This document shows positions 17,324 through 59,505 of a DNA stretch of 64,000 bases, piece after piece. This stretch comes from Billgrantia tianxiuensis (GTDB lineage Bacteria; Pseudomonadota; Gammaproteobacteria; Pseudomonadales; Halomonadaceae). The translations under genes were made by a program, and so were the position numbers. The stretch spans positions 3,720,001 to 3,784,000 of the forward strand of contig NZ_CP035042.1 in the NCBI RefSeq assembly GCF_009834345.1, read 5' to 3'. The notes below the pieces were generated by a model. That model saw only the letters and a list, made by a program, of their open reading frames with translations. It was not told the origin of the DNA and ran no database searches. Position 1 is the stretch's first letter, and each line of letters starts with the position of its first letter.

Positions 17324-18388
17324 TTAGGCCTCCGCTGAAAGCGTCAAGTTGGGATGGGCGATGAGTTCGCGCAGTACTGCCGTGGCGAAACTGCCTCGTG
17401 GCAGTTGGAAGTCGAGACGCGCACCATCTTGCTCCCGCGTCAGCCGCGGCTGATCCAGACGCATGCGCAGGGCGCGCCGTGCCATGCGCACCCCGGCCTG
17501 CTCCAGCCCCCGGCAAAGCGTGGCATGGCGCTCGGCCACGGCACTCTCGTAACGCGCCGCCTCCCCCGTGGCAAGCGAGTCGCCCACGCCCCACAACACG
17601 CCAGTGGGATGCAGGTCGAGCCGGAGGGCACGCGCCTCCAGCTCGGCATCGGGCGTCTCGACGCCGAATTGGCTCGCCGTGCCGTCGAGCATCGCCACGT
17701 CGCCCCCGACCAGGCGCTGCCAGTTGTCATCCGTCAGACGCATCGCCGCGAGCTCGTTGAACAGGTAGCTGCGGGCGGCGGAGAGCAGCATGCCTTCGCG
17801 ATCGTCACGCTTGCGCCAGCCACGCGCCAGCAGCGCATGCGCGCGCGCCAGGTTGCGCCCTGCGGGCCCGAAGCGCTGCGGTCCGAAGAGGTTGGGTACG
17901 CCATGTTGGCACAGCCACGCCCAGCGCTCTTCGAGGTCCTGCTGCAGTGCCGCCCCCGTGATACGCAGTGAGAAGCGATTGGCGCGGTGCACGCCGCGCT
18001 TGAGCTTGCGCGGGTGACGAGCCTGCTCGAGCACTCGCACGCCGCAGCCGGCCAGCCGCTCGGCCAGTCCCTCCGGTGCCGGACGTCCCGGGAGATGCAC
18101 CGAGAGCCATTGGCGGGTCACGGCGATGCGATCCTTCATGCCGGCATAACCCACCGCCCGCGGTGCTACGTCAGATGCCTTCGCCAGGTGGCGTACCGCC
18201 TCCAGGGTGGTAAGTCCACGCTTCTCCACCCATAGCCAGAGATGCTCACCCTCCCCTTCGGGCACGAAGCCGAGAATCTCCTCGACCACGAAGTCCTCGG
18301 GCGTGCCGCGGAACTCGCCAGGGCCGGGCGGTCCAAAATCGGCTTCGGTGGCGCGAGGCCAGTCGCCTGGCCGGGAGGGATCGCTCAC
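17324..18388 (-). CDS. truD: tRNA pseudouridine(13) synthase TruD
   Basis: 354-aa enzyme making pseudouridine 13 in tRNA-Glu. The catalytic aspartate is Asp86 in [13 protein letters not shown], after the FVVEEILGF and [13 protein letters not shown] segments. The TruD-specific insertion domain carries [27 protein letters not shown] and the conserved DG/GP loop. It overlaps ispF by 4 bp upstream and leads into surE, the same order (ispD-ispF-truD-surE-pcm) found in E. coli. Confidence 0.95.
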
Positions 18389-18872
18389 TTGGCCTCCCCC
18401 ACTCGTGCCAGCAAAACCACGGCTTCGGCAGCAATGCCTTCGCCGCGTCCGGTGAAGCCCAGCCGTTCGCTGGTGGTGGCCTTGACGTTGACCGCGCCCG
18501 GGTCAAGTTCGAGATCCTCGGCGATACGCTCGCGCATGGCTTCGATATGGGGCGCCAGCTTCGGTGCCTGGGCGATCACCGTGGCATCGACGTTGCCGAC
18601 CCGATAGCCCGCCTCTTGCACCAGGACCAACACGTGGCGCAACAGAGCCCGGCTGTCGGCACCGGCCCAGACTGGGTCGGTATCGGGAAAATGACGGCCG
18701 ATGTCACCCAGCGCACAAGCACCGAGCAACGCATCGCTGATGGCATGCAGCAGGACATCGCCATCGGAATGGGCAACGAAGCCGTGGTCGAAGGGACGGC
18801 AACACCACCGATCATGAGATGGTCGCCTTCACCGAAACGGTGAACGTCGAAGCCATGGCCGATGCGTAGCAT
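18385..18872 (-). pseudogene. ispF: 2-C-methyl-D-erythritol 2,4-cyclodiphosphate synthase, frameshifted as read
   Basis: MEP-pathway enzyme that cyclises CDP-ME2P. The first 27 codons ([20 protein letters not shown]...) carry the Asp/His metal site in frame. The rest ([20 protein letters not shown] ... [14 protein letters not shown]) lies one frame away. Adding one base to the C run at 18793-18795 (CCC to CCCC, minus strand) restores a continuous 162-aa protein with every conserved block ([19 protein letters not shown]). Because IspF is normally essential and both halves are perfectly conserved, a base-calling error is far likelier than a real lesion. It abuts ispD (TGAATG) and overlaps truD by 4 bp. 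Confidence 0.9.
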
Positions 18873-19619
18873 TCAGGGCGTCTCCTCGTAGGCGTGGTTC
18901 GGCGAGGACGTTCCCTGCTGAGCGGCCAGAATGTGCTCCGCCAGCGCGAGATCCTCCGGATGAGTAATCTTGATATTGTCGCGCCGACCAGGCACCAGCC
19001 GCGGCTTGAGCCCCAGCGCCTCCACCGCCGAGGCCTCGTCGGTCACCTCGAGGCCGCTCGCGACGGCTTCGTTCAGCGCCCGGCACAGCAGGCCGTAGCG
19101 GAAGCCCTGAGGCGTCTGGGCATGCCACAGTCCGCTTCGCGACTCGGTCTGGGACACGTGCCCGTGGCCGTCGTCGCGCTTCATGGTGTCGGCTGCCGGA
19201 GTGGCCAGCAGGCTGCCGGCGGAATCTTCGCGCAGGGCCGCCCAGAGCCGCTGCAGGTCGGCCACCGTGACGCAGGGACGCGCCACGTCGTGCACCAGCA
19301 CCAGGTCGTCGTCGCGGGCCTCGCCAGCCAGCGCCGTCAGTGCCTGACGCACCGAGTCGACTCGCTCGGTGCCGCCGGGGCTGCGTCGCCACTGGTCGAA
19401 GGGCACCCAGCTCGCATCGAAGTGGGCATCATCGGGATCGAGGCACAGGCACAGGCGCGCCTCGGGAAAGGCCTGATGCAGCCGCGACAGGGTATGCGCC
19501 AGCACCGGCCGCCCGGCCAGCGCCAGGTACTGCTTGGGCAGCTCGGCACCCATGCGTCGCCCACGCCCCGCCGCGGGCACCACCAGCCACAGCCGCTCGC
19601 TGCCAGGCCGATCGCTCAT
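18873..19619 (-). CDS. ispD: 2-C-methyl-D-erythritol 4-phosphate cytidylyltransferase
   Basis: 248-aa enzyme that makes CDP-ME from MEP and CTP. The nucleotide-binding loop PAAGRGRRMG-x-ELPKQYL is at residues 14-31. VHDVARPCV and QTPQGFRYGLL, then TDEASAVEALG and IKITHPEDLALAE, are the usual later blocks. It lies between ftsB (4-bp overlap) and ispF (adjacent), the common ftsB-ispD-ispF order. Confidence 0.96.
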   Translation of the reverse strand: MSDRPGSERLWLVVPAAGRGRRMGAELPKQYLALAGRPVLAHTLSRLHQAFPEARLCLCLDPDDAHFDASWVPFDQWRRSPGGTERVDSVRQALTALAGEARDDDLVLVHDVARPCVTVADLQRLWAALREDSAGSLLATPAADTMKRDDGHGHVSQTESRSGLWHAQTPQGFRYGLLCRALNEAVASGLEVTDEASAVEALGLKPRLVPGRRDNIKITHPEDLALAEHILAAQQGTSSPNHAYEETP

Positions 19620-20036: not shown

Positions 20037-21169
20037 TCATATCCTGAACGGCAACGCCCTCTCGGCGGCCCGGCAGTAGGCTTCGACATGGCCGTGCTCC
20101 TCGTCGCAGAAGCGCGCCACGGCAGCGCGCAGTCCGGGATCGGCGAGGTGGTGCAACGAGCGTAGCCGCCGGGGAGCGAAGCCGCGGGTGAGCTTGTGCT
20201 CACCTTGGGTGCCGGGGTCGAAGCAGCTCAGACCCCGCGCCAGGCAATGCTCGATGCCCTGGTAGTAGCACGCCTCGAAGTGCAGGCAATCGGCCAGCAC
20301 CTCGCTACCCCAGTAGCGTCCGTAGAGCGTACGGCGTCCCTGCAGGCAAAGCGCGGCGGCCACCGGCTGGCCATCGAGGCGCGCCTGGATCAACACCAGC
20401 GCTTCAGGCATGGCGCGCCGCAGGCGGCGGAAGAAATCGAGATTGAGGTAGCCGTGGCGCCCTCGCTCCAGGTAGGTGATCTCGTAGCAGCGGAAGAAGT
20501 GCTCCAGCTCCCGCTCGCCAATCTCCTCGCTCTCTAGGCGATGCAGCGTGAGCCCCTGTTCGGCCACCCGCCGGCGCTCACGGCGTATCGACTTTCGCCG
20601 CTTCGAGGTCAGCGCGGCCAGAAAGCCGTCGAAATCTCCGTAGCCCTGGTCGCGCCACTGGAACTGCACGCCATGACGCACCAGCAGCTCGGGCGCACCG
20701 CAAGCCAGGCATCGATCTCGCCGCCTTCGGCGTAGAGCAGATGCCAGCTCGACAGTGCCGTTCCCTCCCACGCTGCGGCCAGCGCATTCCGCGCGGCCAG
20801 GGGATCCTCACCGCTGGCCAGCGCCAGCCGCGGCCCCGGCACGGGAGAGAAAGGAATCGCCGTGAGTCCCTTGGGATAGTAGCGCCCCCCGGCACGTTCC
20901 CAGGCATCGGCCCAGGCCCAATCGAATACGTATTCGCCGTAGGAGTGGAACTTGTGATAGTACGGCATGGCGCCGACCAGCGACTCGCCGCGCCACAGGG
21001 TCAGGTGGCGCGGCAGCCAGCCGGTCGAACGGCTGGCTGCCCCGCTCGCCTCGAGCGCATGCAGGAATTCGTGGCGCAGGAAAGGGTGATCGTCGCCGAC
21101 CAGTGCGTTCCATTGCACTGCCGGCACGGCCTCTATGGCGGGCAGCTGCTTGAGGATCAGCTCGGACAT
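20037..21169 (-). pseudogene. FemAB/GNAT-like acyltransferase (PF04339-type), frameshifted as read
   Basis: Two overlapping minus frames together give one protein of about 377 aa. The first part (MSELILKQLPAIEAVPAVQWNALVGDD...GEIDAWLAVRPE) and the second (LLVRHGVQFQWRDQGYGDFDGFLAALTSKRRKSIRRERRR ... PRRLRSLHHLADPGL) join if the C run at 20691-20693 is one base longer. This is the pattern of the large FemAB-like/GNAT family annotated as peptidoglycan biosynthesis/recognition proteins; the substrate of these proteins is not known. It lies alone between ftsB and the divergent edd operon. As with ispF, the single missing base in a C run suggests a sequencing error. Confidence 0.82.
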
Positions 21170-21262
21170 GGGGGTACCCGGAAGGTGTGACCGAAGCGCC
21201 GGCTGACAATTGGCCGACGGCCGCCTACATTGTGCCCAGACCTGCCGAACCTTTTCCATCGC

Positions 21263-21277
21263 CGTAATAAAACTACA
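21263..21277 (+). promoter_or_regulatory. HexR-like operator upstream of edd
   Basis: The 15-mer at this position matches 14 of 15 positions of the gammaproteobacterial HexR consensus TGTARTWWWAYTACA as I remember it (the first T is C). It lies about 100 bp before the edd start, on the upstream side of a candidate promoter. Confidence 0.5.
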
Positions 21278-21295
21278 TACTTTCGGCAAATGCCC

Positions 21296-21324
21296 TTCAT
21301 TTCCGCCGTGCGATGGGAGATAAT
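21296..21324 (+). promoter_or_regulatory. Candidate edd promoter
   Basis: TTCATT and GATAAT with a 17-base spacer, 40 bp before the edd ATG. A palindrome starts 2 bases after the -10, where the transcript would begin. Confidence 0.4.
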
Positions 21325-21326
21325 TT

Positions 21327-21338
21327 TGTAAATTTACA
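21327..21338 (+). promoter_or_regulatory. Palindromic operator TGTAAATTTACA before edd
   Basis: A perfect 12-bp palindrome immediately after the candidate -10 box of edd. A sibling of the form TGTAAnnTTACA lies upstream of zwf (37032-37043), so one regulator probably binds both; HexR is the obvious candidate. Confidence 0.5.
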
Positions 21339-21363
21339 TCCATCAACGACGCGAGGTGTCCCC

Positions 21364-23245
<1,882 letters not shown>

Positions 23246-23249
<4 letters not shown>

Positions 23250-24213
23250 CCCGACCGGCCCTGATCGGCGACATCGGGGGCACAAATGCCCGCTTCGCCC
23301 TGGTAACCCCGGGCGAGCACGCGCCGCGAGAGATCCTTGCCTTGCCCTGCGCCGACTATCCCGGCCTGGTGGAGGCGGTACGCGACTACCTGGAGCGGGT
23401 CGGGTTGGCCGCCGAGGCGGCGCCACGGGAAGCCTGCCTGGCCTTCGCCTGTCCCATCGGCGACGACCGCGTGACCATGACCAACAACCACTGGTCGTTC
23501 TCGCGTCGCGAGGCACAGACGGCGCTTGGCCTCGAGCGGCTCAAGGTGATCAACGACTTCACCGCCCAGGCCCTGGGGGTACCGCACCTGACGCCCGACG
23601 AGCTGGTCGAGGTACAGCCTGGCGTGGCTCGCGACCACGCCACCTGCCTGGTCATCGGACCGGGTACCGGGCTCGGCGTGGCCGGCATCTTTCCCGGCCG
23701 CCATGCCTGGATCCCGCTGCCCACCGAAGGCGGCCACGTCACCTTTGCTCCCACCGACGAGCGCGAGCAGAACCTGCTGCGTCACTTCCGCAATCGCTAT
23801 GGCCGGGTCTCCGTGGAGCGCATCCTGTGCGGCCAGGGACTGCTCGACCTCTATCTTGCCCACTGCTCGTTGAAAGGCGCCAACCCCGCCTGCCAGACGC
23901 CGGCCGAAGTGACCGCCGCCGCGACAGGCGGCGATGGCATCGCCCGTGATACCCTGCTGCGGTTTCTCAAGATTCTCGGCGATGTCTGCGGTGACGCCGC
24001 GCTGACCATGGGGCACAGGGCGGGGTCTACCTGTGTGGCGGCATCCTGCCACGGCTGCTGGACTGGCTGCCCCAGAGCCGCTTCGTCGAAGCCTTCACCG
24101 ACAAGGGCCGCATGAGCGGCTACACCCGCACCATTCCGGTCCGGGTGGTCACCGCACCCTGGCCGGGTCTACTGGGCGCCGCCGAGGCACTGCGCAACGA
24201 AGAAGTGGAATGA
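23246..24213 (+). pseudogene. glk: Glucokinase, frameshifted as read
   Basis: ATP-dependent glucose kinase of the Glk/ROK-like group that supplies glucose 6-phosphate for Zwf-Edd-Eda. The N-terminus LIGDIGGTNARFAL is the phosphate-1 motif; VINDFTAQALGV and the ATP loop LVIGPGTGLGVAG follow. The C-terminal VYLCGGILPRLLDWL and TAPWPGLLGAAEAL are found one frame away. One extra G in the run at 24010-24013 (ATGGGG to ATGGGGG) joins them into 322 aa, the usual Glk length. It overlaps edd by 4 bp (ATGA). Confidence 0.9.
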
Positions 24214-24240
24214 CGAAGTGAAGCAAGGAGAGGTGAACGA

Positions 24241-35455: not shown

Positions 35456-35509
35456 GTCAGTAGTCCTCGTACCAGCTGCGCCCATCCTGGGTAATCATGG
35501 CGATGGAGG

Positions 35510-36964
35510 CTACCGGCCCCAGGAGCCGGCGGGGTAACGCCGTGGCGGCTCGCCCATCTCCTTCCAGGCGGCGACCAGGCTGTCGCACCAGTGCCAGGCG
35601 TGCTCGACCTCGTCGCGACGCACGAACAAGTACTGGCGCCCCTTCATCACTTCCAGCAGCAGACGCTCGTAAGCATCGGGAATGCGCGCCTGGGGAAAGG
35701 CGCTGCCGAAATCCAGATGCAGCGGGCCACGGCGCAGGCGCATGCCGCGATCCAGACCGCTATCCTTGGTAAGCACCTCGAGCGCGATACCTTCGTCGGG
35801 CTGCAGGCGAATGACCAGCTTGTTGGCGGCCAGGTTGCGCTGGTCGGGATCGAAGATGTAGTGCGCCTGCTGGCGAAAGTGGATCACGATCTGCGAGAGC
35901 TTCTCGGGCATGCGCTTGCCGGTGCGCAGGTAGAACGGCACCCCAGCCCAGCGCCAGTTGGAGACGCCGGTCTTCATGGCGACGAAGGTCTCGGTGCCGC
36001 TCTCGAGGTTGGCGCCCTCCTCCTCGAGGTAGCCGGGAACGCCCTTGCCGTTGATGGTGCCGGCAATGTACTGGCCGCGCACCACGTCGCGATTCAGCTT
36101 GGCCTCGCTGAAGGGCTGCAGTGCCTTGAGCACCTTGACCTTCTCGTCGCGGATGGCATCGGCATCCAGGTTGGCCGGCGGATCCATGGCGATCAGGCAG
36201 ACCAGTTGCAGCAGGTGGTTCTGCACCATGTCGCGCAGCTGGCCGGCACGGTCGAAGTAGCCCCAGCGCCCCTCGATGCCGACCTGCTCGGCCACGGTGA
36301 TTTCGACGTGGGAGATATGGTTCTGGTTCCACTGGGTGCCGAACAGGGGATTGGCAAAACGCAGCGCGATCAGGTTCTGAACGGTTTCTTTGCCGAGGTA
36401 GTGGTCGATTCGATAGACCCGCGACTCCGGGAACACTTCGCCGATGGCGTCGTTGATCTCGCAGGAGGACTCGAAGTCGTAACCGATCGGCTTCTCGACC
36501 ACCACGCGGGAGAGATCGTCCAGGCATTCGCCGGCCTGCAGGTTGCGGCAGATATCGCCATACAGGCTCGCCGGCACGGCAAGGTAGACCACCAGGGGAC
36601 AGACCACGGTGTCATGGCGTACGGCCTTGCGCCATTCGCTTATGCCACGGTAGCCCTCGGCGGTGGCGAAATCGAGCTGCAGGTAGTCGAGACGCGCGGT
36701 GAAGCGTTTGATTGCCCCACGATCGAGTTCGGCAGGCTTGACGTAGGTCTGCAGGGTTTCGGCCACGCGTCGCCGGAAAGCGTCGGACTCCATCTCCTGA
36801 CGGGCCAGCCCCAGGATACGGGTATCGTCGTGTAGCAGACCTTCGCGGTCGAGATGGTAGAGTGCCGGGTAGAGCTTGCGCAGCGACAGGTCGCCCAAGG
36901 CACCGAACAGCGCGAGATCGATGACTGGCCGGCTCTCTTCCTCAGGCCGCTTGCTTGCGTTCAT
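35510..36964 (-). CDS. zwf: Glucose-6-phosphate 1-dehydrogenase
   Basis: 484-aa NAD(P)-dependent enzyme. The coenzyme loop [17 protein letters not shown] lies near residue 20, the substrate and catalytic block [14 protein letters not shown] near 185, and VVEKPIGYD before it. The C-terminal half is complete to [11 protein letters not shown] prefer the ATG at 36964, preceded by GGGGGCGG, over the one at 36976. First gene of zwf-pgl-eda, divergent from hexR, with a promoter and a palindrome upstream. Confidence 0.96.
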
Positions 36965-36993
36965 GTCCGCCCCCATCTGGTTAACTTACATAA

Positions 36994-38023: not shown

Positions 38024-38640
38024 TCAGCTACGACCCTCACCTGCCGCGGCCAGCCAGGCCGCTACCAGCGCACGCGCCTGCTCGCCCACCTGCGCAGGCG
38101 ACTGCCCTGGGCGGTAGAGCGCACTGCCCAGGCCGGCACCGTCCACGCCGGCAGCACGCCAAACGGCGAACTCATCCGCGCCGATGCCGCCCACGGCATA
38201 GAGGCGGGTAGCGGCCGGCAGTACCGCTCGCAGCGCCTTCATACCCTCCACACCCACCTGCACGGCGGGAAACAGCTTCAGCCCCGTTGCCCCGGCATCC
38301 AGCGCATCGAAGGCCTCCGATGGCGTCAGCACACCTGGCCAGCTCTGCATGTCGAGGCGTCGCGTCTCCCCGATCACCGCCGGACGGCAGTTGGGCGAAA
38401 CCACCAGTCGCCCGCCGGCGGCATGCACGGCACGAACCTCATCCACGCCGAGCACGGTGCCGGCGCCTACCAGCGCACGCTCGCCCAGCGCCTCGGCCAG
38501 GCGGCGGATGCTTTCGAGCGGGTCGGGGAGTTAAGAGGGACTTCCAGAGTGGTGATGCCAGCAGCGATGACGGCTTCGCCAACCGCCACCGCCTCCTCGG
38601 GGTGGATACCGCGCAGGATGCCGATCAGGGGCAAGGTCAT
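38024..38640 (-). pseudogene. dgoA: 2-dehydro-3-deoxy-6-phosphogalactonate aldolase, frameshifted as read
   Basis: Eda-like class I aldolase that splits KDPGal. The first part MTLPLIGILRGIHPEEAVAVGEAVIAAGITTLEVPLNSP and the second (LVGAGTVLGVDEVRAVHAAGG ... GLKLFPAVQVGVEGMKAL with the Schiff-base Lys) are in different frames. Lengthening the C run at 38525-38528 by one base gives NSPDPLESIRRLAEALGERALVGAGTVL and an intact 205-aa protein. A sequencing error is likely. Last gene of dgoR-dgoD-dgoK-dgoA; ATG 38640 has GGAG upstream. Confidence 0.88.
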
Positions 38641-38659
38641 GTCCGTCTCCATAAGGTTG

Positions 38660-39619
38660 TCACGCGCCGGCCCGTGCCAGTCCCAGGCCAGCCAGTACCG
38701 CCGCTTCGCCATCGAGACGCCGGCTGGTATGACCGAGCGCCCCGAGGGCCAGCGCATAGCGCTCGCACAGCGCCTCGCTGCCGATCAGGGTGATGGGAAC
38801 ACTCGCCAGCTCGTGCCGAACACCGCCGAGTTCGAGGCCAATGGCGAGCCCCGAGAGGCGCGCTCCCAGCCGGGCTCGCCGCGCCTCACCGGCAGGCAGC
38901 GAATCGTCGAGCAGGTCGGCGGCACGCAGACCGAACAGCCACTGGCTGAAGCGCCCCGGCTCGTCGGCTGCCTCACGCACCGCGCCGATGAACGCCTCGC
39001 GACAGCCGGACTCGACGAGCCCGGCGTCGGCCACTGTGTGCCTGAGCACCGACTGACCGGCCAACAGGCCATAGAGTTCACCGGTCAGGTAAGTGGCGAA
39101 GCGCTTGACCTCGCCGCCCTCCAGCCACGCCCACTTGGCATGGGTACCCGGCAGGCACACCAGCCCCGAAAACTCCGGCTCCCAGGCCACCAGTCCGGCC
39201 AGTTGCGTCTCCTCGCCGCGCATCACGTCGAAGCCGCGCTTCGCGGCGTCGGCATGCTGGCACAGCCCCGGCAGCAGGCGCACCTCGAGCCGCGCATCGC
39301 GCAGCGAAGGAGCCACGGCGCCGCGAGTCAGCTCTTCCAGGCGCGTCGGCAACGGCAGGTAGGCCGCTTCACGCCAGCCCTGGCGGGCGCCAGCCATGCC
39401 GCAAATCCACACCGCCACGCGTCCCGAAGCGGGCAGCCAGTCGCCGACGGTCTCCAGTAGCGCAGGCTCGTAGTCCTCCGGCGCCAGGGCCAGCATGCCC
39501 TTGTCGCTGCCGCCCCGGGCCAGCACTTCGCCACGCTCGTCCAGCCCCCAGGCGCGCAGGTGGCTCGAGCCCCAGTCCACCGCGACCCATGCCAGCCGCT
39601 CGCGTACCTCATCGCTCAT
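38660..39619 (-). CDS. dgoK: 2-dehydro-3-deoxygalactonokinase
   Basis: 319-aa kinase making KDPGal from 2-keto-3-deoxygalactonate. WVAVDWGSSHLRAWGLD is the phosphate loop of the DgoK family; ICGMAGARQGW, VCLPGTHAKWAWLEGG and the late VTLIGSEALCERYALAL follow. The ATG at 39619 has AGGAGG eight bases upstream. Between dgoD and dgoA in one operon. Confidence 0.93.
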   Translation of the reverse strand: MSDEVRERLAWVAVDWGSSHLRAWGLDERGEVLARGGSDKGMLALAPEDYEPALLETVGDWLPASGRVAVWICGMAGARQGWREAAYLPLPTRLEELTRGAVAPSLRDARLEVRLLPGLCQHADAAKRGFDVMRGEETQLAGLVAWEPEFSGLVCLPGTHAKWAWLEGGEVKRFATYLTGELYGLLAGQSVLRHTVADAGLVESGCREAFIGAVREAADEPGRFSQWLFGLRAADLLDDSLPAGEARRARLGARLSGLAIGLELGGVRHELASVPITLIGSEALCERYALALGALGHTSRRLDGEAAVLAGLGLARAGA

Positions 39620-46502: not shown

Positions 46503-47039
46503 ATGCCGAAGCAAGCGATCAAGTGGCTCGGCGTCGGCATGGCGCTGGCTTGGCCAGTGCTGGTCTTCAGCCTGCACGATCACTTGGGTAGCTGGCCGCT
46601 GTTGATGATCGGTGCCGCGTTGCTCGCCTGGCGAATGCCACAGGCTCGCTATCTGGCCTCCGTGATGGCAGCACTGTTGCTGGCGTTGGGTGGCTTGGGG
46701 CATGCCGAACTCGGCATGCGTGCCTACCCCGTCGCCGTCAGCGCCATCATGCTGGCCCTCTTTCTGTCCAGCCTGTGGCAGGGCATGCCGATCGTCGAGC
46801 GTCTGGCGCGCCTGCGTGAACCCGACCTGCCACCGGCCGCGATACGCTATACCCGCCGGGTCACCTGGGCATGGTGTGGCTTCTTCGTCCTCAATGGAGC
46901 CATCGCCTGCTGGACCGCCCTGTATGCCGACCTGGCGACCTGGACGCTGTACAACGGCGTCATCAGCTACGCCCTTATCGCCACCATGTTTGCCGGTGAA
47001 TGGCTGCTGCGTCATCGGTTGCGAAGGAGTCTGTCGTGA
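46503..47039 (+). CDS. COG4648-type inner-membrane protein
   Basis: 178-aa protein with about five membrane segments (VGMALAWPVLVFSL, MAALLLALGGLG, VSAIMLALFLSSLW, WAWCGFFVLNGAIACW, YNGVISYALIATMFAGE) and the conserved RLREPDLPP loop. Homologues occur in aryl-polyene clusters in this position. Role unknown; perhaps part of the membrane assembly or export site. It overlaps the ligase gene by 4 bp. Confidence 0.83.
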   Translation: MPKQAIKWLGVGMALAWPVLVFSLHDHLGSWPLLMIGAALLAWRMPQARYLASVMAALLLALGGLGHAELGMRAYPVAVSAIMLALFLSSLWQGMPIVERLARLREPDLPPAAIRYTRRVTWAWCGFFVLNGAIACWTALYADLATWTLYNGVISYALIATMFAGEWLLRHRLRRSLS

Positions 47040-49490: not shown

Positions 49491-50428
49491 ATCGCCATTG
49501 GGCTCGGATCGGTGAGCGCGGCACCCTTGCCGGCATGACGCTGATGGTGGCGATACAGCGCCACCTGGGACGCTGGCCCTTCCGACTCGTTCTGGCGCCG
49601 GTCATGCTGTGGTACTTCCTGGCGCATGCCACGGCACGACGTGCCTCTCAGTCCTATCTGCAACGTCTCTATCCTGCTCTCGAACGACGACCACTCGCCC
49701 GCTGGTGGCACAGCTACCGCCACTTTCTCACCTTCGGCGATGCGCTGATGGACAAGGTCGCGGCGTGGAGTGGGGACATCGCCGACGGACGCCTGACCGG
49801 CCCGGGCATCGAACGCTTCACTGCCGCCATCGACGGTGGCCGGGGCGGCCTGATCCTGGTCGCCCACCACGGCAATCTCGACGTGGCCAATGCCCTGGCT
49901 GAACGCCACCCGGGACTCGAACTGACGGTGCTGATGCATACCCGCAATGCGCGCAAGTTCAACGCGCTACTGGAACGTGTCACGGGCCGGCCCCGCCCGC
50001 ATGTGCTCGAAGTCAGCGCGATCACGCCGGCCACCGCCCAGGCGCTGGCCGAACGCATTCACACCGGTGGCTATGTGGTCATCGCCGCCGATCGGCTGTC
50101 CTTGTCAGGGGGACGCACGCAGTGCCTCGATTTCTTCGGCGATCGCGCCATGTTCCCCGAGGGCCCATTCTGGCTCGCTGCGTTACTGCGTTGCCCGCTC
50201 TACACCCTCGCCTGCGTGCGCGAGGATGGCAGCTTCCGGATCGACTTCGAAGCCATTGACGACACCGGGAACCTGCCACGCCGTCAGCGCGAAGCGTGGA
50301 TCTCCGAGGCCATGCAGCGCCATGCCGATCACCTGGCCGAGCGCGTTCGGCAGCATCCCCTGCAATGGTTCAATTTCTATCCGTTCTGGATGAACGACAC
50401 TGGATTTCACCATGACGACACTGCATGA
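49487..50428 (+). CDS. Lipid A acyltransferase-like protein (LPLAT)
   Basis: 313-aa member of the LpxL/LPLAT family. After a hydrophobic N-terminus, HHGNLD (HX4D) lies near residue 127, followed by LHMHTRN-type and VVIAADRLSL segments. It overlaps the GT2 gene by 4 bp. I believe GT and acyltransferase parts are fused in some known clusters (ApeJ), whereas here they are separate proteins. Confidence 0.84.
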   Translation: MNRHWARIGERGTLAGMTLMVAIQRHLGRWPFRLVLAPVMLWYFLAHATARRASQSYLQRLYPALERRPLARWWHSYRHFLTFGDALMDKVAAWSGDIADGRLTGPGIERFTAAIDGGRGGLILVAHHGNLDVANALAERHPGLELTVLMHTRNARKFNALLERVTGRPRPHVLEVSAITPATAQALAERIHTGGYVVIAADRLSLSGGRTQCLDFFGDRAMFPEGPFWLAALLRCPLYTLACVREDGSFRIDFEAIDDTGNLPRRQREAWISEAMQRHADHLAERVRQHPLQWFNFYPFWMNDTGFHHDDTA

Positions 50429-51983
50429 CCCGCTTGCCGGCCCCACCAGCAGCGAGGCGCTCACGCTGGATGGCTCGGCCGTGACCCTCGAGGACGTATT
50501 GGCCGTTACCGAAGGCCGCCGGCGCGTCGTGCTGTCGTCGGCGCCCGAATTCCGTGAACGCATAGCACGCGGCAATGCGTTTCTCGAACGCCTGCTGGAG
50601 GAAGACGGCGTGGTCTACGGCGTCACCACCGGCTATGGCGACTCCTGTACCCGCGCAGTGCCCGCCTCCGACCTGGAGCAACTGCCGCGCCAGCTATATA
50701 CCTTCCACGGCTGTGGCCTGGGCGAGGTGCTGTCGGTGGAAGCCGCGCGGGCCGTGGTCATGGTGCGGCTGGTGTCGCTGTGCCGCGGGGTCTCGGGGGT
50801 CAGCGTCGAGCTCCTCGAACGACTGGCCTGGTTGCTCGAGCATGATGTCGTACCGGTCATTCCCGAAGAAGGCTCGGTGGGCGCCAGCGGCGACCTGACG
50901 CCGCTGTCGTACCTGGCCGCCGTGCTGTGTGGCGAACGTGAAGTGTTCGACCGCGGCCAGCGTCGCGCCACGTCGGAGGTCTTCGCCGAACACGGCCTCG
51001 TCCCCTATCGCCTCAAGCCCAAGGAAGGCCTGGCACTGATGAACGGCACCGCGGTGATGACCGCGCTGGGTGTGTTCGCCTTCGCCCGGACGACCTACCT
51101 GGCGCGGCTGGCCACGCGCATTACCGCACTGTCGGTCTACGCGCTGGACGGCAATCCCTATCATTTCGACGCCGACCTGTTCGCCGCCAAGCCGCACCCC
51201 GGGCAAAACCGCGTGGCCGAGCGGCTGCGCGACGATCTGCATGCTCCCGCCACGCCACGCAACTCGCCCCGCCTGCAGGACCGTTACTCGACGCGCTGCG
51301 CCCCGCATGTGATCGGCGTAGTGGAAGATGCCCTGCCCTGGTGGCGCCAATTTCTCGAAACCGAACTCAACAGCGCCAACGACAACCCACTGATCGATGC
51401 CGAGCACGGCAAGGTCATGCATGGCGGCCATTTCTACGGCGGCCATGTCGCCTTCGCCATGGATAGTCTCAAGCAAGCCTGTGCCAACCTGGCCGACCTG
51501 CTCGATCGTCAGTTGGCGCTGCTGGTCGACACTCGCTTCAACCATGGCCTGCCCAGCAACCTGAGTGGTGCCACGCCACAGCGAGCCAGCCTCAACCATG
51601 GCTACAAGGCGGTACAGATCGGCGCTTCGGCGTGGACCGCCGAGGCGCTCAAGCTGACCATGCCGGCCAGCGTCTTCTCACGCTCCACCGAATGTCACAA
51701 CCAGGACAAGGTCAGCATGGGCACCATCGCCGCCCGCGATGCACTGCGTGTCCTGACACTCGTCGAGCAGGTCGCCGCCGCCACCCTGCACGCCGCCTGC
51801 CAGGCCGTCGAGCTGCGCAGCCAGATAGCCGATGCCACCCCGCTTCCCGAACGCCTGGCCGGCTTTCTCGATGTCTGTCGATCGACGTTTCCGGCCCTGG
51901 GCGAGGATCGAGCCCTGGAACCCGAACTGCGCACCCTCTGTGGCCTGATTCGCCAACGCCGCTGGAGCCTGTATGACGCCTGA
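50412..51983 (+). CDS. MIO-type aromatic amino acid ammonia-lyase (HAL/PAL/TAL family)
   Basis: 523-aa lyase. The self-cyclising tripeptide ASG is at residues 158-160 in GSVGASGDLTPLSY. VYGVTTGYGDSC (catalytic Tyr), NDNPLID and the SVFSRSTECHNQDKVSMG block are all there, so it should be active. At the substrate-choice position it has Phe98-His99 (LYTFHGCGLG), neither the Ser-His of HAL, the Phe-Leu of PAL, nor the His-Leu of TAL. It should make the cinnamate or coumarate-type starter of the polyene. Start overlaps the acyltransferase end. Confidence 0.9.
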   Translation: MTTLHDPLAGPTSSEALTLDGSAVTLEDVLAVTEGRRRVVLSSAPEFRERIARGNAFLERLLEEDGVVYGVTTGYGDSCTRAVPASDLEQLPRQLYTFHGCGLGEVLSVEAARAVVMVRLVSLCRGVSGVSVELLERLAWLLEHDVVPVIPEEGSVGASGDLTPLSYLAAVLCGEREVFDRGQRRATSEVFAEHGLVPYRLKPKEGLALMNGTAVMTALGVFAFARTTYLARLATRITALSVYALDGNPYHFDADLFAAKPHPGQNRVAERLRDDLHAPATPRNSPRLQDRYSTRCAPHVIGVVEDALPWWRQFLETELNSANDNPLIDAEHGKVMHGGHFYGGHVAFAMDSLKQACANLADLLDRQLALLVDTRFNHGLPSNLSGATPQRASLNHGYKAVQIGASAWTAEALKLTMPASVFSRSTECHNQDKVSMGTIAARDALRVLTLVEQVAAATLHAACQAVELRSQIADATPLPERLAGFLDVCRSTFPALGEDRALEPELRTLCGLIRQRRWSLYDA

Positions 51984-52413
51984 CGACCGCCCACTACCGC
52001 GCTGCGAGACCGAGCTGACGATCCCCTTCCATGACGTCGACATGATGCAGGTGGCCTGGCATGGCCACTATGTGCGCTATCTGGAAGTCGCCCGCTGCAA
52101 GCTGCTCGATGCCATCGACTATAACTACCCGCAGATGCAGGCCTCGGGGTTCGCCTGGCCGGTGATAGATCTACGCCTGCGCTATGCCGCTCCTGCGCTG
52201 TTCGCCCAGCGCATCGCCATCGAGGCACGCCTGAGCGAGTGGGAGAACCGTCTCAAGATCGACTACACCATCCGCGATGCCGAGACGCGCAAACGCCTGA
52301 CCCGGGCCTGGAGCGTGCAGGTCGCGGTGGGACTGGACGATCGTGAAATGCGCCTGGAGTCGCCGCCGGCGCTGATCGAACGTCTTCTCGCCTGGCAGGA
52401 GGCTAACCAGTGA
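51973..52413 (+). CDS. Acyl-CoA/ACP thioesterase, 4HBT hotdog family
   Basis: 146-aa hotdog protein. TIPFHDVDMMQVAWHGHYVRYLEVAR contains the Asp of the 4-hydroxybenzoyl-CoA/YbgC type active site. It may release the polyene or an aromatic acid. It overlaps the lyase gene and the LolA-like gene. Confidence 0.88.
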   Translation: MTPDDRPLPRCETELTIPFHDVDMMQVAWHGHYVRYLEVARCKLLDAIDYNYPQMQASGFAWPVIDLRLRYAAPALFAQRIAIEARLSEWENRLKIDYTIRDAETRKRLTRAWSVQVAVGLDDREMRLESPPALIERLLAWQEANQ

Positions 52414-52967
52414 TGCGTCATCTCCCATGGACACTGTGTGTCGCCCTGAACCTGATAGGTCCGGCGGCCTGGGCAGCTCCCGATAGCGACGCTCTCGCCG
52501 AGCACCTGGCCACGCATGCGCCGCAATGCGGTCGCTTCGAACAATCGCGCTGGCTGGCCGATCTCGAGGCACGCCTGGTCAGCCGCGGTCATTTCCAGCA
52601 AGACAAAGAGGGCGTCGTCTGGCAAACCACCGCTCCCGTCAACGATCGTGTGGTCCTGAATGCAGACAATGACGACCTGCCGCTGGGCTTCCAGATCATC
52701 GCCCCGGTCTTCACTGGTCTTCTCTCGGGGAACTGGCAGGCATTGGAGCATCACTTCACGATCGAACTCAGTGGCGAGCTGGAAGACTGGCAAGCCACGC
52801 TGGTACCCAACGAAGCTGCTGTCGCCGAACGACTCACGCAACTGCTGGTGAGCGGCAACCGGCAAGTGGAGCAGGTCGGACTCGAGTTTGCCGACGGCGA
52901 CCGGCTCGACCTGACCCTGACACCGGCCACTTGCGGCAGCCTCGACGACGGTGATCCTGCATCGTGA
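52413..52967 (+). CDS. LolA-like periplasmic carrier
   Basis: 184 aa. Signal peptide ending AWA/APDSD. FEQSRWLADLEARLVSRGHF and the strand pattern resemble LolA but with little identity to the housekeeping protein. Its place next to the MMPL exporter suggests it ferries the polyene lipid across the periplasm. ATG at 52413 overlaps the thioesterase stop (TGATG); a GTG three bases earlier is possible. Confidence 0.82.
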   Translation: MRHLPWTLCVALNLIGPAAWAAPDSDALAEHLATHAPQCGRFEQSRWLADLEARLVSRGHFQQDKEGVVWQTTAPVNDRVVLNADNDDLPLGFQIIAPVFTGLLSGNWQALEHHFTIELSGELEDWQATLVPNEAAVAERLTQLLVSGNRQVEQVGLEFADGDRLDLTLTPATCGSLDDGDPAS

Positions 52968-55267
52968 GCGATGCACAACATCCTACCCGTGGCGAGCGCC
53001 TCGCGGCCTGGGGCTGGGCCGTGCTGCTGCTGGGGTGCGCCATCCTGCTGGCAAGTTTGCTGAGCCAGGGAACGCCGCTGGATACACGCATCACTGCACT
53101 ACTTCCCAAAACCCACCAGACGGTATTGATCGAACAGGCCGAACAGCGCCTGACCCAAGCCTTCGAGGATCGCTTCGTGCTACTGGTCCACGGCGAGTCC
53201 CCACGCCGGCTGGTCGCTGACCTCAAGGCCCGCCTGCGGAACTCCGCCAGCGTCAGCGACCTCGACGACAATAGCTTCGAGCGTCCCGACAGCGCCCTGG
53301 CGCCATACCGCTATCGTCTGCTGGCCGAGCCACTGGCCAGCGCCGATAGTGACGCCTGGGTCCAGCACGGCCTGAGGCGGTTGTTCACCCCCGGCAACGA
53401 TATCGATCTCCGGCGCGATCCTTTCGGTCTGCTCGACGCCTGGCTGGAACGACGCCTGGACGGTCCCATCCGCTTGGTCGATGGTCTGCCGGCCGTCAGC
53501 GACCAGGATAAACACTGGTTCATCGTCAGTGGCCGACTGTCCGCCAGCCCCTACGACATGGCCCTGCAGCGGCGCCTCACCGCTGCGCTGTCGAGCTTTC
53601 GGGATGCCCACCCCGAGGCCCAGTTGTTGCGTGGCGGCCTGGTGTTCCATGCTGCCGCCGGGGCTAACCAGGCCAAACGGGAAATCTCCACCATCGGACT
53701 GGGGTCGCTGCTGGGTATCGGCTTGTTGCTATGGGGTACGTTTCGACGTGGTGCGATCCTCGCCAGCCTGCTGCTGCCGGTCGCGTGTGGTGTGCTGTTC
53801 GCGCTGCCATTGACCTGGTTGCTGTTCGGCACGCTCAACCTGCTCACGCTGGCTTTCGGCGCCAGCCTGATTGGCATCGCGGTCGACTATGCCCTGCATC
53901 TGCAATGCGCTCGCCAACTGGCTCCCGAGCAAACGCTGACACGCCTTTGGCCCGGATTGTTGCTGGGTCTGGTATCCAGTCTGGCGGCCTATCTCGCCCA
54001 ACTCGCCACCCCCTTGCCGGGGCTACGTCAGATGGCCACTTTCGCCGCGCTGGGACTGATCGGCGCGTGGCTGACCGTGCGGCTATGGCTACCGTGGTTC
54101 TCCCCACGCCCTCACACCGCGACGACACGCATCGCAGCCCGGCTGGACCGGCTGCGCTTGCCACCCCAAGCAACATATCGTTGGAGCCTGCTGGCCTTGC
54201 TTGGCTTGGTCGCGGGGGTACTGATCGTCACGCGCCTGACAGCCAACGACGACCTGCGCCAGCTCAACCCTTCGCCCGCCGCCCTGATCGCCGAGCAGCA
54301 ACGCGTGCAGACCTTGCTGGAACGTCCCTCCGGCAGCCGCTATCTGGTCGTCACCGCCGAACATGAAGCCGGCCTGCTGGAGCGACTGGAAGCCCTCGAG
54401 GCGCCTTTGGCGGAACTGCGGGAGCAGGGGCACCTGACGCACTACCGTCACCTCGCCCAGGCGGTACCCTCTCCGGCTACCCAGCAAGTCAATCTGGACC
54501 GGGTGCGTCAAGCCTATGCCAGTGCCTTGCCCGAATTCATCGCCAGGGCCGGACTTCCGCCGGCACTGCTGGAAGCGGCCCAGGAACCGCTACGCAGGGT
54601 GCCGCTGTTGACCCTCGAGGAATGGCTAAAGATGTCGGCGGGACGTGCCGATAGCATGCTGTGGCTTGGCGAGGTGTCCACGTCCGATACCGCGACTCCC
54701 GAACTGGCCGCCCTGATCGCGCTGGGCGACACCGATGAGATGGCCCAGCAAGCACTCACTCGGCTCGCCGCACCAGCGCATGTCCATTACCAGGACCGGG
54801 TGGCAACGCTTTCCGATCATCTGGCACGGCTGCGCGATCAGATCGCCATGTGGTTGGCGGTCGCCGTGGTGGGGTTGGCGTTGCTGTTCGGCTGGCGTTA
54901 TCGCGGCCTGGCCTGGCGCGTGTTGCTGCCGCCGCTGGGAGCGCTGGTCGCGACCCTCGCGCTGTTCAGCGCTTTGAACATCGGCCTGACGCTGTTTCAT
55001 CTGCTGGGGCTGCTGCTGGTGCTGGGTATCGGTCTCGATGCCGGAATCTTCAGCACCGAGCACCCCGACAGCCCGGCAGCCTGGCTGGCGATCAGCCTGT
55101 CCTGCGCATCGAGCCTGCTGGCTTTCGGCCTGCTCTCCTTCAGCGCCACGCCGGCCTTGCACTACCTGGGCCTGACCTGCCTTGTCGGCCTCGCGGCGAC
55201 CTGGGCCCTGGTGCCCTTCGCCAGGGCGGACACCAGGAGCCTTTTTTCCAAACACAGCCAGCCATGA
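52964..55267 (+). CDS. MMPL/RND-family lipid exporter
   Basis: 767-aa inner-membrane exporter. One N-terminal membrane segment, a periplasmic domain of about 200 residues, five grouped segments with the GASLIGIAVDYALHLQ motif, then the same arrangement repeated (second group LLVLGIGLDAGIFS). The internal Asp residues of both repeats fit proton-driven RND/MMPL carriers. It is coupled by GTGA overlap to the LolA-like gene and is the likely pump for the finished aryl-polyene lipid. Confidence 0.88.
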   Translation: MSDAQHPTRGERLAAWGWAVLLLGCAILLASLLSQGTPLDTRITALLPKTHQTVLIEQAEQRLTQAFEDRFVLLVHGESPRRLVADLKARLRNSASVSDLDDNSFERPDSALAPYRYRLLAEPLASADSDAWVQHGLRRLFTPGNDIDLRRDPFGLLDAWLERRLDGPIRLVDGLPAVSDQDKHWFIVSGRLSASPYDMALQRRLTAALSSFRDAHPEAQLLRGGLVFHAAAGANQAKREISTIGLGSLLGIGLLLWGTFRRGAILASLLLPVACGVLFALPLTWLLFGTLNLLTLAFGASLIGIAVDYALHLQCARQLAPEQTLTRLWPGLLLGLVSSLAAYLAQLATPLPGLRQMATFAALGLIGAWLTVRLWLPWFSPRPHTATTRIAARLDRLRLPPQATYRWSLLALLGLVAGVLIVTRLTANDDLRQLNPSPAALIAEQQRVQTLLERPSGSRYLVVTAEHEAGLLERLEALEAPLAELREQGHLTHYRHLAQAVPSPATQQVNLDRVRQAYASALPEFIARAGLPPALLEAAQEPLRRVPLLTLEEWLKMSAGRADSMLWLGEVSTSDTATPELAALIALGDTDEMAQQALTRLAAPAHVHYQDRVATLSDHLARLRDQIAMWLAVAVVGLALLFGWRYRGLAWRVLLPPLGALVATLALFSALNIGLTLFHLLGLLLVLGIGLDAGIFSTEHPDSPAAWLAISLSCASSLLAFGLLSFSATPALHYLGLTCLVGLAATWALVPFARADTRSLFSKHSQP

Positions 55268-55290
55268 TGGCAACAGGAGTAACGAATCAC

Positions 55291-56553
55291 ATGGACACTC
55301 ATGACACCACCGATGTCGCCATCATCGGCGCAGGCCCTTCCGGGGCCGCGGCGGCCGCCTGGCTCGCCCGACGCGGCCTGCATGTCCGGGTCATCGAGCG
55401 CAGTCGCTTCCCACGCTTCTCCATCGGCGAGAGTCTGCTGCCGCAGTGCATGGTGCACCTCGAGGCCTGCGGCCTGCTAGAGGCCGCACGGGCTGGTGAC
55501 TTCCAGCCCAAGAACGGCGCCGCCTTCACCTGGCGCGGCCAGGACACCGCCATCGATTTCCGAGACAAGTTTAGCCCCGGCCCCGGTACCACATGGCAGG
55601 TCGAGCGCGCCGATTTCGACCAGCGCCTGATCGAGGGGGCACGCCAAGCCGGTGCCGAGGTCGAATTCGACACCAGCGTCGAAGCCTTCGTCGCCGACGC
55701 CGACCACCCCTCCCTCACGCTGGTTGGTCCGAGCGGCGAGCGACGTTCGCTACGCTCCCGTTTCGTGCTCGACGCCAGTGGCTACGGCCGTGTCCTGGCG
55801 CGTCTCACCGGCCTCGCCCGGCCCTCGACCCTGGAATCGCGCTGCGCCCTGTTCACCCACATCGAGGATCATATCGTCTGCCCGCGGCACGACCGCGAGA
55901 AGATCCTGATCGGCCTGCACCCCGATCATCCGGGCATCTGGTATTGGCTGATTCCCTTTCGGAATGGACGCGCCTCGGTTGGCGTGGTCGGCGACCGGGC
56001 AACGCTCGAAGCCACCGGTATCGACGATAGCGAACGCCTGTGGCACTTCATCCATGCCGAACCCCGGCTTGCCGAGTTGCTGGCCAATGCCGAAACCACA
56101 CGCGACGTCGGCCGCCTGGAAGGCTATTCCGCCGATGTCCAGCAATTGCACGGCCCCGGCTTTGCCCTATTGGGCAATGCCGGCGAATTCCTCGACCCGG
56201 TGTTTTCCTCGGGAGTGACGATCGCATTGGACTCGGCACTGCGTGCCGCCCCCTTGGTCGAGCGTCAGCTCGCCGGAGAAAAAATCGACTGGGAGACCCA
56301 GTTCGAACAGCCGCTGCGGCGCGGCGTGGCTACCTTCCGTGAATTCGTCGATGCCTGGTACGACGGACGCCTGCCACGCATTATCTTCAACGCGCAACAA
56401 ACGCCGCGTATCCGCGCGATGATCAGTTCGGTGCTTGCCGGCTATGCCTGGGACGAAAACAACCCCTTCGTCGCCGCCAGCCGCCGTCGGCTGAACAGTC
56501 TGGCTGAGGCCTGCAGCGACGAAGCATCCTCCATCATCAGCGAGGTTTGCTAG
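55291..56553 (+). CDS. FAD-dependent oxidoreductase, tryptophan-halogenase/GGR-like
   Basis: 420-aa flavoprotein. The FAD motif VAIIGAGPSGAAAAAWLARRG is at the N-terminus, RFSIGESLLP follows, and ALLGNAGEFLDPVFSSGVTIAL is the second FAD contact. The WxWxIP motif of true flavin halogenases is replaced by WYWLIPF, so halogenation is unlikely. Such enzymes occur in aryl-polyene and flexirubin clusters; the reaction is not known, perhaps oxidation of the aromatic head. The ATG at 55291 with AGGAG upstream is chosen over 55264/55267. Confidence 0.85.
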   Translation: MDTHDTTDVAIIGAGPSGAAAAAWLARRGLHVRVIERSRFPRFSIGESLLPQCMVHLEACGLLEAARAGDFQPKNGAAFTWRGQDTAIDFRDKFSPGPGTTWQVERADFDQRLIEGARQAGAEVEFDTSVEAFVADADHPSLTLVGPSGERRSLRSRFVLDASGYGRVLARLTGLARPSTLESRCALFTHIEDHIVCPRHDREKILIGLHPDHPGIWYWLIPFRNGRASVGVVGDRATLEATGIDDSERLWHFIHAEPRLAELLANAETTRDVGRLEGYSADVQQLHGPGFALLGNAGEFLDPVFSSGVTIALDSALRAAPLVERQLAGEKIDWETQFEQPLRRGVATFREFVDAWYDGRLPRIIFNAQQTPRIRAMISSVLAGYAWDENNPFVAASRRRLNSLAEACSDEASSIISEVC

Positions 56554-57120
56554 GTGCGACGTCCTTTCCTTCGTCATGCGTTGTTGGCTGCCGCCCTGGC
56601 ACTACTGGTCGGCTGTGCCGGGCAGCCGGTCGATGCACCGCTCCCCAAGCCGGCGGCACTGTCCGACCTGGGCACGCGGATGCAACGCCTGACGTTCGAA
56701 CATCAGGACCAGCGACACGAACTGATCGGCGTCTTGCGTCACGACGAACAATCGCTGCGCCTGGCCCTGCTGAGCCCTCAAGGTCAACGCTTGCTGACCC
56801 TTGAGCATGACGAGCATGGAGCCCGTTTCGTTGCCGACACATCGTTCGATCCCGCATTTTCGGCCGAGTGGCTTGCCAGTCGCCTGGCCTGGAGCCTGTG
56901 GCCTTCAGCATCATTGACACAGGCCTTCGAGGGCAGCGACTGGTCACTGGCGGAAGATCGCGAGGAGCGCACCGTCCGCTACCGGGGACGAGACATCGCG
57001 CACATCACCGGAAGCGCCGAATGCCGTATCATCGACGATTTCGAAGGTGATTATCGCTTGTATATCGCACCACTTGACGACGCAACCGACCGGACAGCCG
57101 CTACATGCCCAGCCGATTGA
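56554..57120 (+). CDS. DUF3261 lipoprotein
   Basis: 188 aa, GTG start directly after the oxidoreductase stop. Lipobox LVGC places the lipid cysteine at residue 21. The rest, with RMQRLTFEHQDQRHELIGVLR and LLSPQGQRLLTLEHD, fits DUF3261, a family found in aryl-polyene clusters. It likely sits in the outer membrane and may take part in final placement of the lipid. Confidence 0.83.
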   Translation: MRRPFLRHALLAAALALLVGCAGQPVDAPLPKPAALSDLGTRMQRLTFEHQDQRHELIGVLRHDEQSLRLALLSPQGQRLLTLEHDEHGARFVADTSFDPAFSAEWLASRLAWSLWPSASLTQAFEGSDWSLAEDREERTVRYRGRDIAHITGSAECRIIDDFEGDYRLYIAPLDDATDRTAATCPAD

Positions 57121-58297
57121 CTCCCTTGCAGGCCCAGCCCTGCCGTCTCTTGCCCCGGCGCTGATCTGCCCCCTGGGCGATGACTTGGTGACGATCGCCG
57201 ATGCCTTGTTCAACGGTCGTCGAGGCTTGGTGTACGACGACACCTTCACTCCTGGCCGCCCATTGCCGCTGGGACGAGTGAGATCTCCCCTGCCCGATGC
57301 CGGCAGCCTGCCGGCGGCACACCGTTCGCGCAATAATCAGTTGCTGGCCGCGGCACTGGAGCGACTCGAGCCGACACTCGATGCCTTTCGCCGGCGTCGC
57401 CCCCAGGCACGCATCGGGGTGATCCTCGGCACCAGCACCTCGGGCATCGGCGAGACCGAAATCGCCCTGACCAGACGTCAACGGGAAGGCGATTGGCCAG
57501 CGGATTTTCGCTACCAGCGCCACGAGATCGGCTCTCCAGCCTGCTTCGTCGCCGAGTGGCTCGGCCTCGAGGGGCCGGCCTATACGTTGTCCACCGCTTG
57601 CACGTCGAGCGCCCGGGCCCTGGCCAGTGCCAAGCGCCTGCTGGCAAGTGGCGCCTGCGATGCGGTGATCGCCGGCGGCGCCGACAGTCTTTGCGGCCTG
57701 ACCGTCAATGGCTTCGCCTCGCTCGAGGCGCTCAGCGATAGCCCCTGCCAGCCATTCTCGGCCAATCGTGACGGTATCAATCTGGGCGAAGCCGCGGCAC
57801 TGTTCCTGGTCACCGCCGAAGCCGGCGGCATCCAGCTCAGCGGCTATGGCGAGACCAGCGACGCCTATCATATTTCCGCGCCGCGACCCGACGGCCAGGG
57901 AGCCATCGCAGCCATCCAGGCGGCGCTGGACATGGCTCGGCTGCCCGCCACCGCCATCGACTATCTCAACCTGCACGGTACCGCGACCCGACAGAACGAC
58001 AGCATGGAAGCCCTGGCCATCTCCCAGCTCTTTGGCGACACACTCCCATGCAGCTCGACCAAGGCCTTGACCGGCCATACGTTGGGCGCCTGTGGCGCAC
58101 TGGAAGCGGCCTTCTGCTGGATGGCCCTCGACGCCGGCCGGTTGCCGCCCCACGTCCATGACGGCCAGCTCGACCCGGAGCTATCGCCGCTGAGCTATGC
58201 CTCGGTCGGGAAACATGACGGCTCCCGCGCGATCAGCAATGCCTTCGCTTTCGGTGGCAACAACATCGCCCTGCTGTTGGAACGTATTCATGACTGA
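57105..58297 (+). CDS. apeO: Beta-ketoacyl-ACP synthase (aryl-polyene), N-terminus possibly frameshifted
   Basis: About 397 aa. The Cys-His-His triad is complete: STACTSSARALA, LHGTATRQND and ALTGHTLGACGALE. It is the likely partner of the chain-length factor at 44.5 kb. The conserved frame (APALICPLGDDLVTI) has no ATG near its start; in-frame options are GTG 57047 and TTG 57074, deep in the previous gene. The ATG at 57105, overlapping the DUF3261 end as is usual here, is one base out of frame. An extra C in a C run near 57123-57131 would join MPSRLTPL to PALPSLAPALICPLG. I therefore set the start at 57105. Confidence 0.8.
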
Positions 58298-58784
58298 CTC
58301 CTCGACATTCCACAGGCTCGATCTGCCCTGCGACATTGCTCCTTACGTGCCGCATCGACACGGCATGTGCCTGCTCGACACTCTGCTCGAGGCGGGAGAC
58401 GAACACCTGCATGCCGAAGTCACTCCTCGCCGTGACGACCTGTTTGCCAGCGCCGATGGCATACCCGGCTGGGTGGGACTCGAATGGCTTGCCCAGGCCG
58501 TTGCCGCCTGGGCCGGCGTACAGGCCGTGAACGGAGGAGGCACGCCACAAATCGGCTTTCTGCTCGGCACCCGACGCTATCGATGTCAGACACCGCAGTT
58601 TGCGTTCGACCAACCGATACGCATCGAGGTCGAACTCGATTTTCGTGCCGACAACGGCCTGGGAGCCTTTCGCGGACGACTGCTGGACAGCGACGGCCGA
58701 GAGCTCGCCACCACCACGCTCAACGTCTTTCAGCCCGAGTCTCGAGAGGCGCTGGAGGCCATGCAACAGGAGAGCACCCCATGA
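58290..58784 (+). CDS. apeP: 3-hydroxyacyl-ACP dehydratase (aryl-polyene)
   Basis: 164-aa hotdog protein of the ApeP/FabA-like type. CDIAPYVPHRHGMCLLDTLLEAGDEHL has the PHRxxMxLLD core with the catalytic His, then the helix GWVGLEWLAQAVAAWAG. It probably pairs with the dehydratase domain fused to the acyl-AMP ligase, because the related enzymes ApeI and ApeP form a heterodimer. ATG overlaps the ketosynthase end. Confidence 0.87.
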   Translation: MTDSSTFHRLDLPCDIAPYVPHRHGMCLLDTLLEAGDEHLHAEVTPRRDDLFASADGIPGWVGLEWLAQAVAAWAGVQAVNGGGTPQIGFLLGTRRYRCQTPQFAFDQPIRIEVELDFRADNGLGAFRGRLLDSDGRELATTTLNVFQPESREALEAMQQESTP

Positions 58785-59505
58785 CCGATACCATTCTGGT
58801 CACCGGCTCGAGCCGCGGCATCGGTCGCGCCATTGCCCTGCGCCTGGCGCGGGATGGCTTCGATGTCGTGCTGCACTGTCGTCATCGCAGGGAGGCTGCC
58901 GAAGCGGTCGCCGATGACATTCGCGCACTGGGGCGCGGTGCCCGCGTCCTGTGCTTCGATGTCGCCGACCGCGAAGCGGCACGGCATGCCATAGAAACCG
59001 ATATCGAAGCGCATGGCGCCTATTACGGCGTGGTCTGCAACGCCGGCATCACCGCCGATGGCGCGTTTCCCGCTCTCTCCGACGAGGACTGGGATAGCGT
59101 CATCCATACCAATCTCGATGGCTTCTATAACGTGGTCAAACCCTGGTCATGCCGATGATTCGCCGTCGTGCTCCAGGCCGTATCGTGGTGATGTCCTCGG
59201 TGTCGGGATTGATGGGTAATCGCGGCCAGGTCAACTACAGCGCCGCCAAGGCCGGCTTGATCGGTGCGGTGAAGGCCCTGGCGGTGGAGCTGGCCAAACG
59301 GCGAATCACGGTCAATTGTGTCGCCCCGGGATTGATCGACACCGACATGACCGATGACTTGGTCACCGAGGAAGCTCTCAAGCTGATTCCCATGCGTCGC
59401 ACAGGCACCAGCGAGGAAGTCGCCGCCACGGTAGGCTTTCTGTGCTCCCCTGATGCCGGCTACATCACCCGGCAGGTCTTCGCCGTGAATGGAGGAATGT
59501 GCTGA
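58781..59505 (+). pseudogene. apeQ: 3-ketoacyl-ACP reductase (aryl-polyene), frameshifted as read
   Basis: FabG-type short-chain reductase. TILVTGSSRGIGRAIALRLA (NADPH loop), VCNAGITADGAF and, in the next frame, GRIVVMSSVSGLMGNRGQVNYSAAKAGLIG (Ser-Tyr-Lys catalytic residues) and FAVNGGMC. The frame breaks at the C run 59141-59143: one more C gives VVKPLVMPMIRRRAPGR and an intact 241-aa enzyme. Likely a sequencing error. ATG overlaps apeP by 4 bp. Confidence 0.9.

Follow-up and report, generated by a model that had tools for sequence, protein, structure and literature searches.

Indels that depend on run length are known from mismatch-repair mutators, and insect endosymbionts provide examples of frame rescue at poly(A) runs. 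Run-associated indels have also been described for long-read sequencing. The part of PMC8486125 used here reports that nanopore homopolymer errors are mainly deletions, that they are worse in high-G+C genomes beyond a run length of four, and that C and G runs are called less well than those of A and T. In one nanopore assembly, deletions followed runs that were mostly four to five bases long, and A/T runs were most often affected, according to the sections of that report drawn on here (PMC12007338).

The window analysed here, a stretch of 64,000 bases of the Billgrantia tianxiuensis chromosome, contains eight genes that lose their reading frame at short G or C runs. We consider these frame losses to be most likely errors of the assembly consensus, caused by under-called G/C runs that probably stem from long reads (probability about 0.97). 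Three points are inferred: how long the runs really are in the cell, which platform was used, and which strain this is, presumably B. tianxiuensis BC-M4-5. The genome of BC-M4-5 was obtained with PacBio RSII and Illumina sequencing, from which Canu assembled a single circle, as stated in the part of PMC8014003 that concerns the assembly.

Materials and methods

The window covers positions 3,720,001-3,784,000 of a single contig of 5,015,118 bases (completeness 95.21). The G+C content was 63.9% in a 344-kb sample of the assembly. Named loci were matched via a ligase-like protein of the window, and ten of eleven belonged to Halomonadaceae (Halomonas, Litchfieldella, Vreelandella, Billgrantia). 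Identities of the compared genomes were determined for the edd-glk stretch. The closest one was G036 with 96%, followed by G010 and G008 with 90% and G030 with 87%.

For the frame test, predicted proteins of relatives were used as tblastn queries against the window; a shift very near the end of a gene could be overlooked by this test. For the local length test, the net length within 30 bases of a site was compared between the window and each relative. These two tests replaced a nucleotide vote (at least half of the relatives sharing an identical gap), which had missed the FemAB-like gene and apeO.

For the indel survey, three regions of the B. tianxiuensis genome, starting at 900, 2260 and 3680 kb, were aligned with G036; the 3680-kb region contains the window. 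Indels were kept where identity was at least 80% and no further gap occurred within 20 columns on each side. Stretches at 200, 1600, 3000 and 4500 kb stayed outside the indel counts: the G036 counterparts of the first three were not in the comparison set, and the 4500-kb stretch aligned at only 76%. Run-loss rates were computed for runs with identical flanks in B. tianxiuensis and G036. The comparison with G030 was regarded as the fairest control pair.

Results

Eight genes of the window are one base short at G/C runs

The affected genes are listed below. The ape gene names are those of an earlier sequence-only reading of this DNA.

18388..18872, minus strand: ispF (YgbB family); frame lost at GGG 18793-18795, proteins of relatives match in two frames
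20040..21382, minus strand: FemAB-like gene (PF04339); frame lost at GGG 20691-20693, two frames
21313..23249, plus strand: edd-like gene (dehydratase, ILVD_EDD N and C domains); frame lost at GGGGG 22434-22438
23246..24210, plus strand: glk (glucokinase); frame lost at GGGG 24010-24013, two frames
35460..36976, minus strand: zwf (glucose-6-phosphate dehydrogenase); last ~20 residues out of frame, CCCC 35517-35520
38027..38730, minus strand: KDPG/KHG-type aldolase gene (dgoA in the sequence-only reading); frame lost at GGGG 38525-38528
57105..58297, plus strand: beta-ketoacyl synthase gene (apeO in the sequence-only reading); frame lost near the start, CCCC 57153-57156
58781..59505, plus strand: short-chain reductase gene (apeQ in the sequence-only reading); frame lost at CCC 59141-59143

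In tblastn, the proteins of relatives change frame across the site in ispF, the FemAB-like gene, edd, glk, the aldolase gene, apeQ and zwf. For apeO, the opening residues conserved in relatives are read in a different frame from the remainder, and the switch lies at 57,153-57,156. As assembled, none of the eight genes has a frame that is open for a full-length product. The Pfam domains of the pieces and of the intact copies fit the gene names given earlier; the aldolase could be assigned only to the KDPG/KHG type.

Taking all eight sites together, the window was exactly one base short within 30 bases of the site in 48 of 52 comparisons with relatives. This was the case against all relatives compared for ispF (4/4), the FemAB-like gene (5/5), glk (8/8), the aldolase gene (4/4), apeO (8/8) and apeQ (8/8). 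For edd, seven of eight relatives carried the additional base and the eighth showed equal length. For zwf, four of seven relatives did so, and the remaining three differed by 0, 2 and 4 bases. Alignment to relatives, which had been proposed as a check, showed the extra base in nearly all comparisons.

The sequence-only reading had named six genes (ispF, the FemAB-like gene, edd, glk, dgoA and apeQ), and both the runs it pointed to and the frame losses were found again, with two frames in tblastn and a one-base deficit against relatives. It had placed a probable seventh shift, in apeO, at 57.12 kb; the shift itself was recovered, at a position about 30 bases away. Its count of six to seven genes was too low, since it had missed zwf and since the compared parts of the genome are affected likewise.

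At the glk site, the G run is broken by a C in G036, and in G030 it is unbroken and one base longer than in the window, which fits a synonymous change together with a shortened run. At sites where two G/C tracts are separated by one base in G036, the simplest reading is that a synonymous change lengthened the run, which was then under-called. Because G030 has the unbroken run, glk is such a site.

A local hot spot was considered and rejected: although 5.3 kb of window sequence contain four of the shifts, random placement reached this number in 98% of 5,000 simulations. Further flagged frame changes near 4,447, 21,187, 24,033-24,218, 34,774 and 55,188 were taken, by judgement, as alternative starts or doubtful open reading frames.

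Two of the eight genes lie in a block at about 43,455-61,906, called an ape cluster in the sequence-only reading, which contains beta-ketoacyl synthase, acyltransferase, AMP-binding and aromatic amino acid lyase domains. The block is absent from G030, where its flanks are 49 bases apart, and the aligned stretches of G036 and G010 contain nothing that matches it. Among the more distant relatives, it occurs, for example, in G005, G079 and the named loci L003, L004 and L009. Four long open reading frames at or inside the edges of the block (41594-43351, 43624-44325, 52964-55267 and 60836-61444) had no Pfam match at 1e-5, and some of them may be spurious. No tRNA or tmRNA genes were found in the whole window.

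Single-base deletions prevail in all compared regions

The alignment of the three regions with G036 covered 143,434 coding bases. It showed 42 deletions of a single base in B. tianxiuensis, compared with 4 single-base insertions. The other indels were one 25-base insertion and 12 indels with a length that is a multiple of three. The density of single-base deletions was 0.292, 0.293 and 0.294 per kb in the three regions, and they showed no excess clustering there. The window holds 7 of the surveyed deletions, where 9.6 were expected from the rest of the sample. As judged from these counts, the effect is spread over the compared genome parts and is not confined to the window. One of the deletions, at window position 61,966, lies outside the eight genes, though it is counted in the 42 and in the 7 of the window; as read, it is located in the spacer ahead of the start of a phosphonate-binding protein gene.

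Of the 118 G036 genes that were wholly covered, 33 carried at least one deletion in B. tianxiuensis, a count that takes in two overlapping genes sharing one deletion. Ten of the 33 were compared with NCBIfam. Five were above the curated cut-off (acnB, cydD, an RND efflux permease, an efflux outer-membrane subunit and a beta-N-acetylhexosaminidase), two had a match below the cut-offs (YbbP and PhnE), and the other three did not reach the threshold for a match.

At least two of the 42 deletions, at 2,299,601 and 3,793,821, are not simple run losses. Two of the four insertions are located in the window, one at 4,447 in a doubtful open reading frame and one at 9,887 near the 3' end of a gene; the others lie at 2,278,910 and 2,289,433.

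The control comparisons gave a different picture for pairs with and without the B. tianxiuensis assembly. Compared with G030 over 48,403 coding bases, it showed 11 deletions, one of which was not run-linked, and no insertion, whereas G030 against G036 showed no deletion and two insertions in 47,713 coding bases. Four control pairs among relatives, which share sequences and are more divergent than B. tianxiuensis and G036, had 3 single-base deletions and as many insertions in 149,898 coding bases.

Losses increase with the length of G/C runs

The proportion of G/C runs that had lost one base rose from 0/2264 at length 3 to 10/469 at length 4, 10/87 at length 5, 3/7 at length 6 and 2/4 at length 7. 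None of 439 A/T runs of at least three bases was changed. At runs of at least four, the loss was 25/567 for G/C versus 0/66 for A/T (p = 0.10), so that the restriction to G/C is only suggestive for this class. A called G/C run of at least three bases was touched by 41 of the 42 deletion junctions, compared with 17.4% of random junctions.

A census of runs was discarded as evidence. G/C runs of at least seven bases occurred at 1.2 per 100 kb in B. tianxiuensis versus 7.0 in G036, yet the values were 2.9 in G030, 1.2 in G010, 2.5 in G008 and 2.5 in G005. Because the other relatives are also low, the census speaks neither for nor against a loss.

Copies of the 23S rRNA gene disagree with each other

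The four 23S copies of B. tianxiuensis differ in length at five G/C runs, with 2, 1, 1, 1 and 3 of the four copies being one base short (8 of 20 cells). In the 23S copies of G030, the length is constant at those five columns, one of which lies in a stretch where both genomes differ. Losses that occur in some copies and not in others at one site point to stochastic error.

The four copies (L109, L112, L114 and L116) are also split two to two at one C/T position, and all of them are without one A of a pair that is present in G030 and G010. Thus, not every difference in 23S is a run loss. Near alignment column 527, one of the four 23S copies of G030 (L115) is unlike the other three.

The four 16S copies were identical. 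None of 44 runs of four and 8 runs of five was shortened in them, where about 1.9 losses were expected from the measured rates, and rpoB was intact. Both observations count against under-calling, yet they are compatible with chance.

Hit genes are under unrelaxed selection

Compared with G036, dN/dS was 0.094 for the hit genes, 0.089 for the portion after the shift and 0.096 for the other genes. No in-frame stops were found downstream of the shifts in hit genes; elsewhere, there was one in the hit genes outside the post-shift part and one in the other genes. Neither the relaxed selection nor the further lesions after the shifts that would be expected of pseudogenes were seen.

Discussion

Our comparative data argue for a consensus in which G/C runs of about four or more bases would have been called one base short. 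The source would most likely be noisy single-molecule long reads, with a consensus for which short-read correction was lacking or incomplete. The sequence-only reading had put forward homopolymer under-calling as the cause, and the bias towards deletions, the rise with run length, the equal density in the three regions, the unrelaxed selection and the discordant 23S copies fit it better than any known biology. What speaks against it is the reported use of Illumina data: if the strain is BC-M4-5, most such errors should be gone. In that case, correction apparently did not make full use of the Illumina data.

The indels could also be real if the lineage were a mutator in which mismatch repair is defective and runs shrink in the living chromosome. 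The rise of loss with run length is what replication slippage would produce. However, slippage should yield gains as well, and 42 deletions stand against 4 insertions. It should also strike A/T runs, of which 0 of 439 with at least three bases were changed, although the contrast is only suggestive at four or more (p = 0.10). The gene for IspF, which is essential in E. coli, is among those that lose their frame, and with 33 of 118 genes hit and 23S copies that contradict each other, we regard a mutator as very improbable. We give the same low credence to true pseudogenes, that is, to individual genes that lost their function and are now decaying. The frames as assembled would indeed give no full-length product, but the lesion is of one kind everywhere, the hit genes evolve under the same dN/dS as the others, and the part beyond the shift is equally constrained and free of in-frame stops.

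A further possibility is that the cell does carry the short runs. A free-living halophile would then keep more than one in four of its sampled genes out of frame at G/C runs and rescue the proteins by slippage in transcription or translation, which would fit the unchanged selection before and after the shifts. This is the least probable of the three. Called runs are as short as three bases, relatives have the longer run in 48 of 52 comparisons, and the discordance between 23S copies would be left without explanation.

If this assembly is used as the reference of the species, automatic annotation could label about one quarter of the genes as pseudogenes, as in the sample of 118. Extrapolated to the coding part, 0.29 deletions per kb would amount to very roughly 1,200 false frame losses. 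It would be wrong to claim that glucose entry or the Entner-Doudoroff route is missing (glk, zwf, edd) or that the aryl polyene cluster is broken, and the assembly would introduce a bias into comparisons of gene content. The value of these results is a warning about the assembly; this is technically useful, and the biology is ordinary.

The pattern resembles that of mismatch-repair mutators in its dependence on run length. It differs from them in that gains are very few, A/T runs of at least three bases show no loss, the proportion of hit genes is high (33 of 118) and the 23S copies are discordant. Among the papers listed by our literature searches, we recognised no study with exactly this profile for PacBio RSII. 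The closest match is with uncorrected long-read assemblies, where single-base deletions at homopolymers of four to five and more bases split conserved genes, as described in the relevant parts of PMC12007338 and PMC8486125. Both of these concern nanopore data, whereas the likely platform here is PacBio RSII. Moreover, A/T runs were the most affected in the assembly described in that part of PMC12007338, whereas here no A/T run of at least three bases was changed. A feature in common with the portion of PMC8486125 considered is that C/G runs fare worse than A/T runs.
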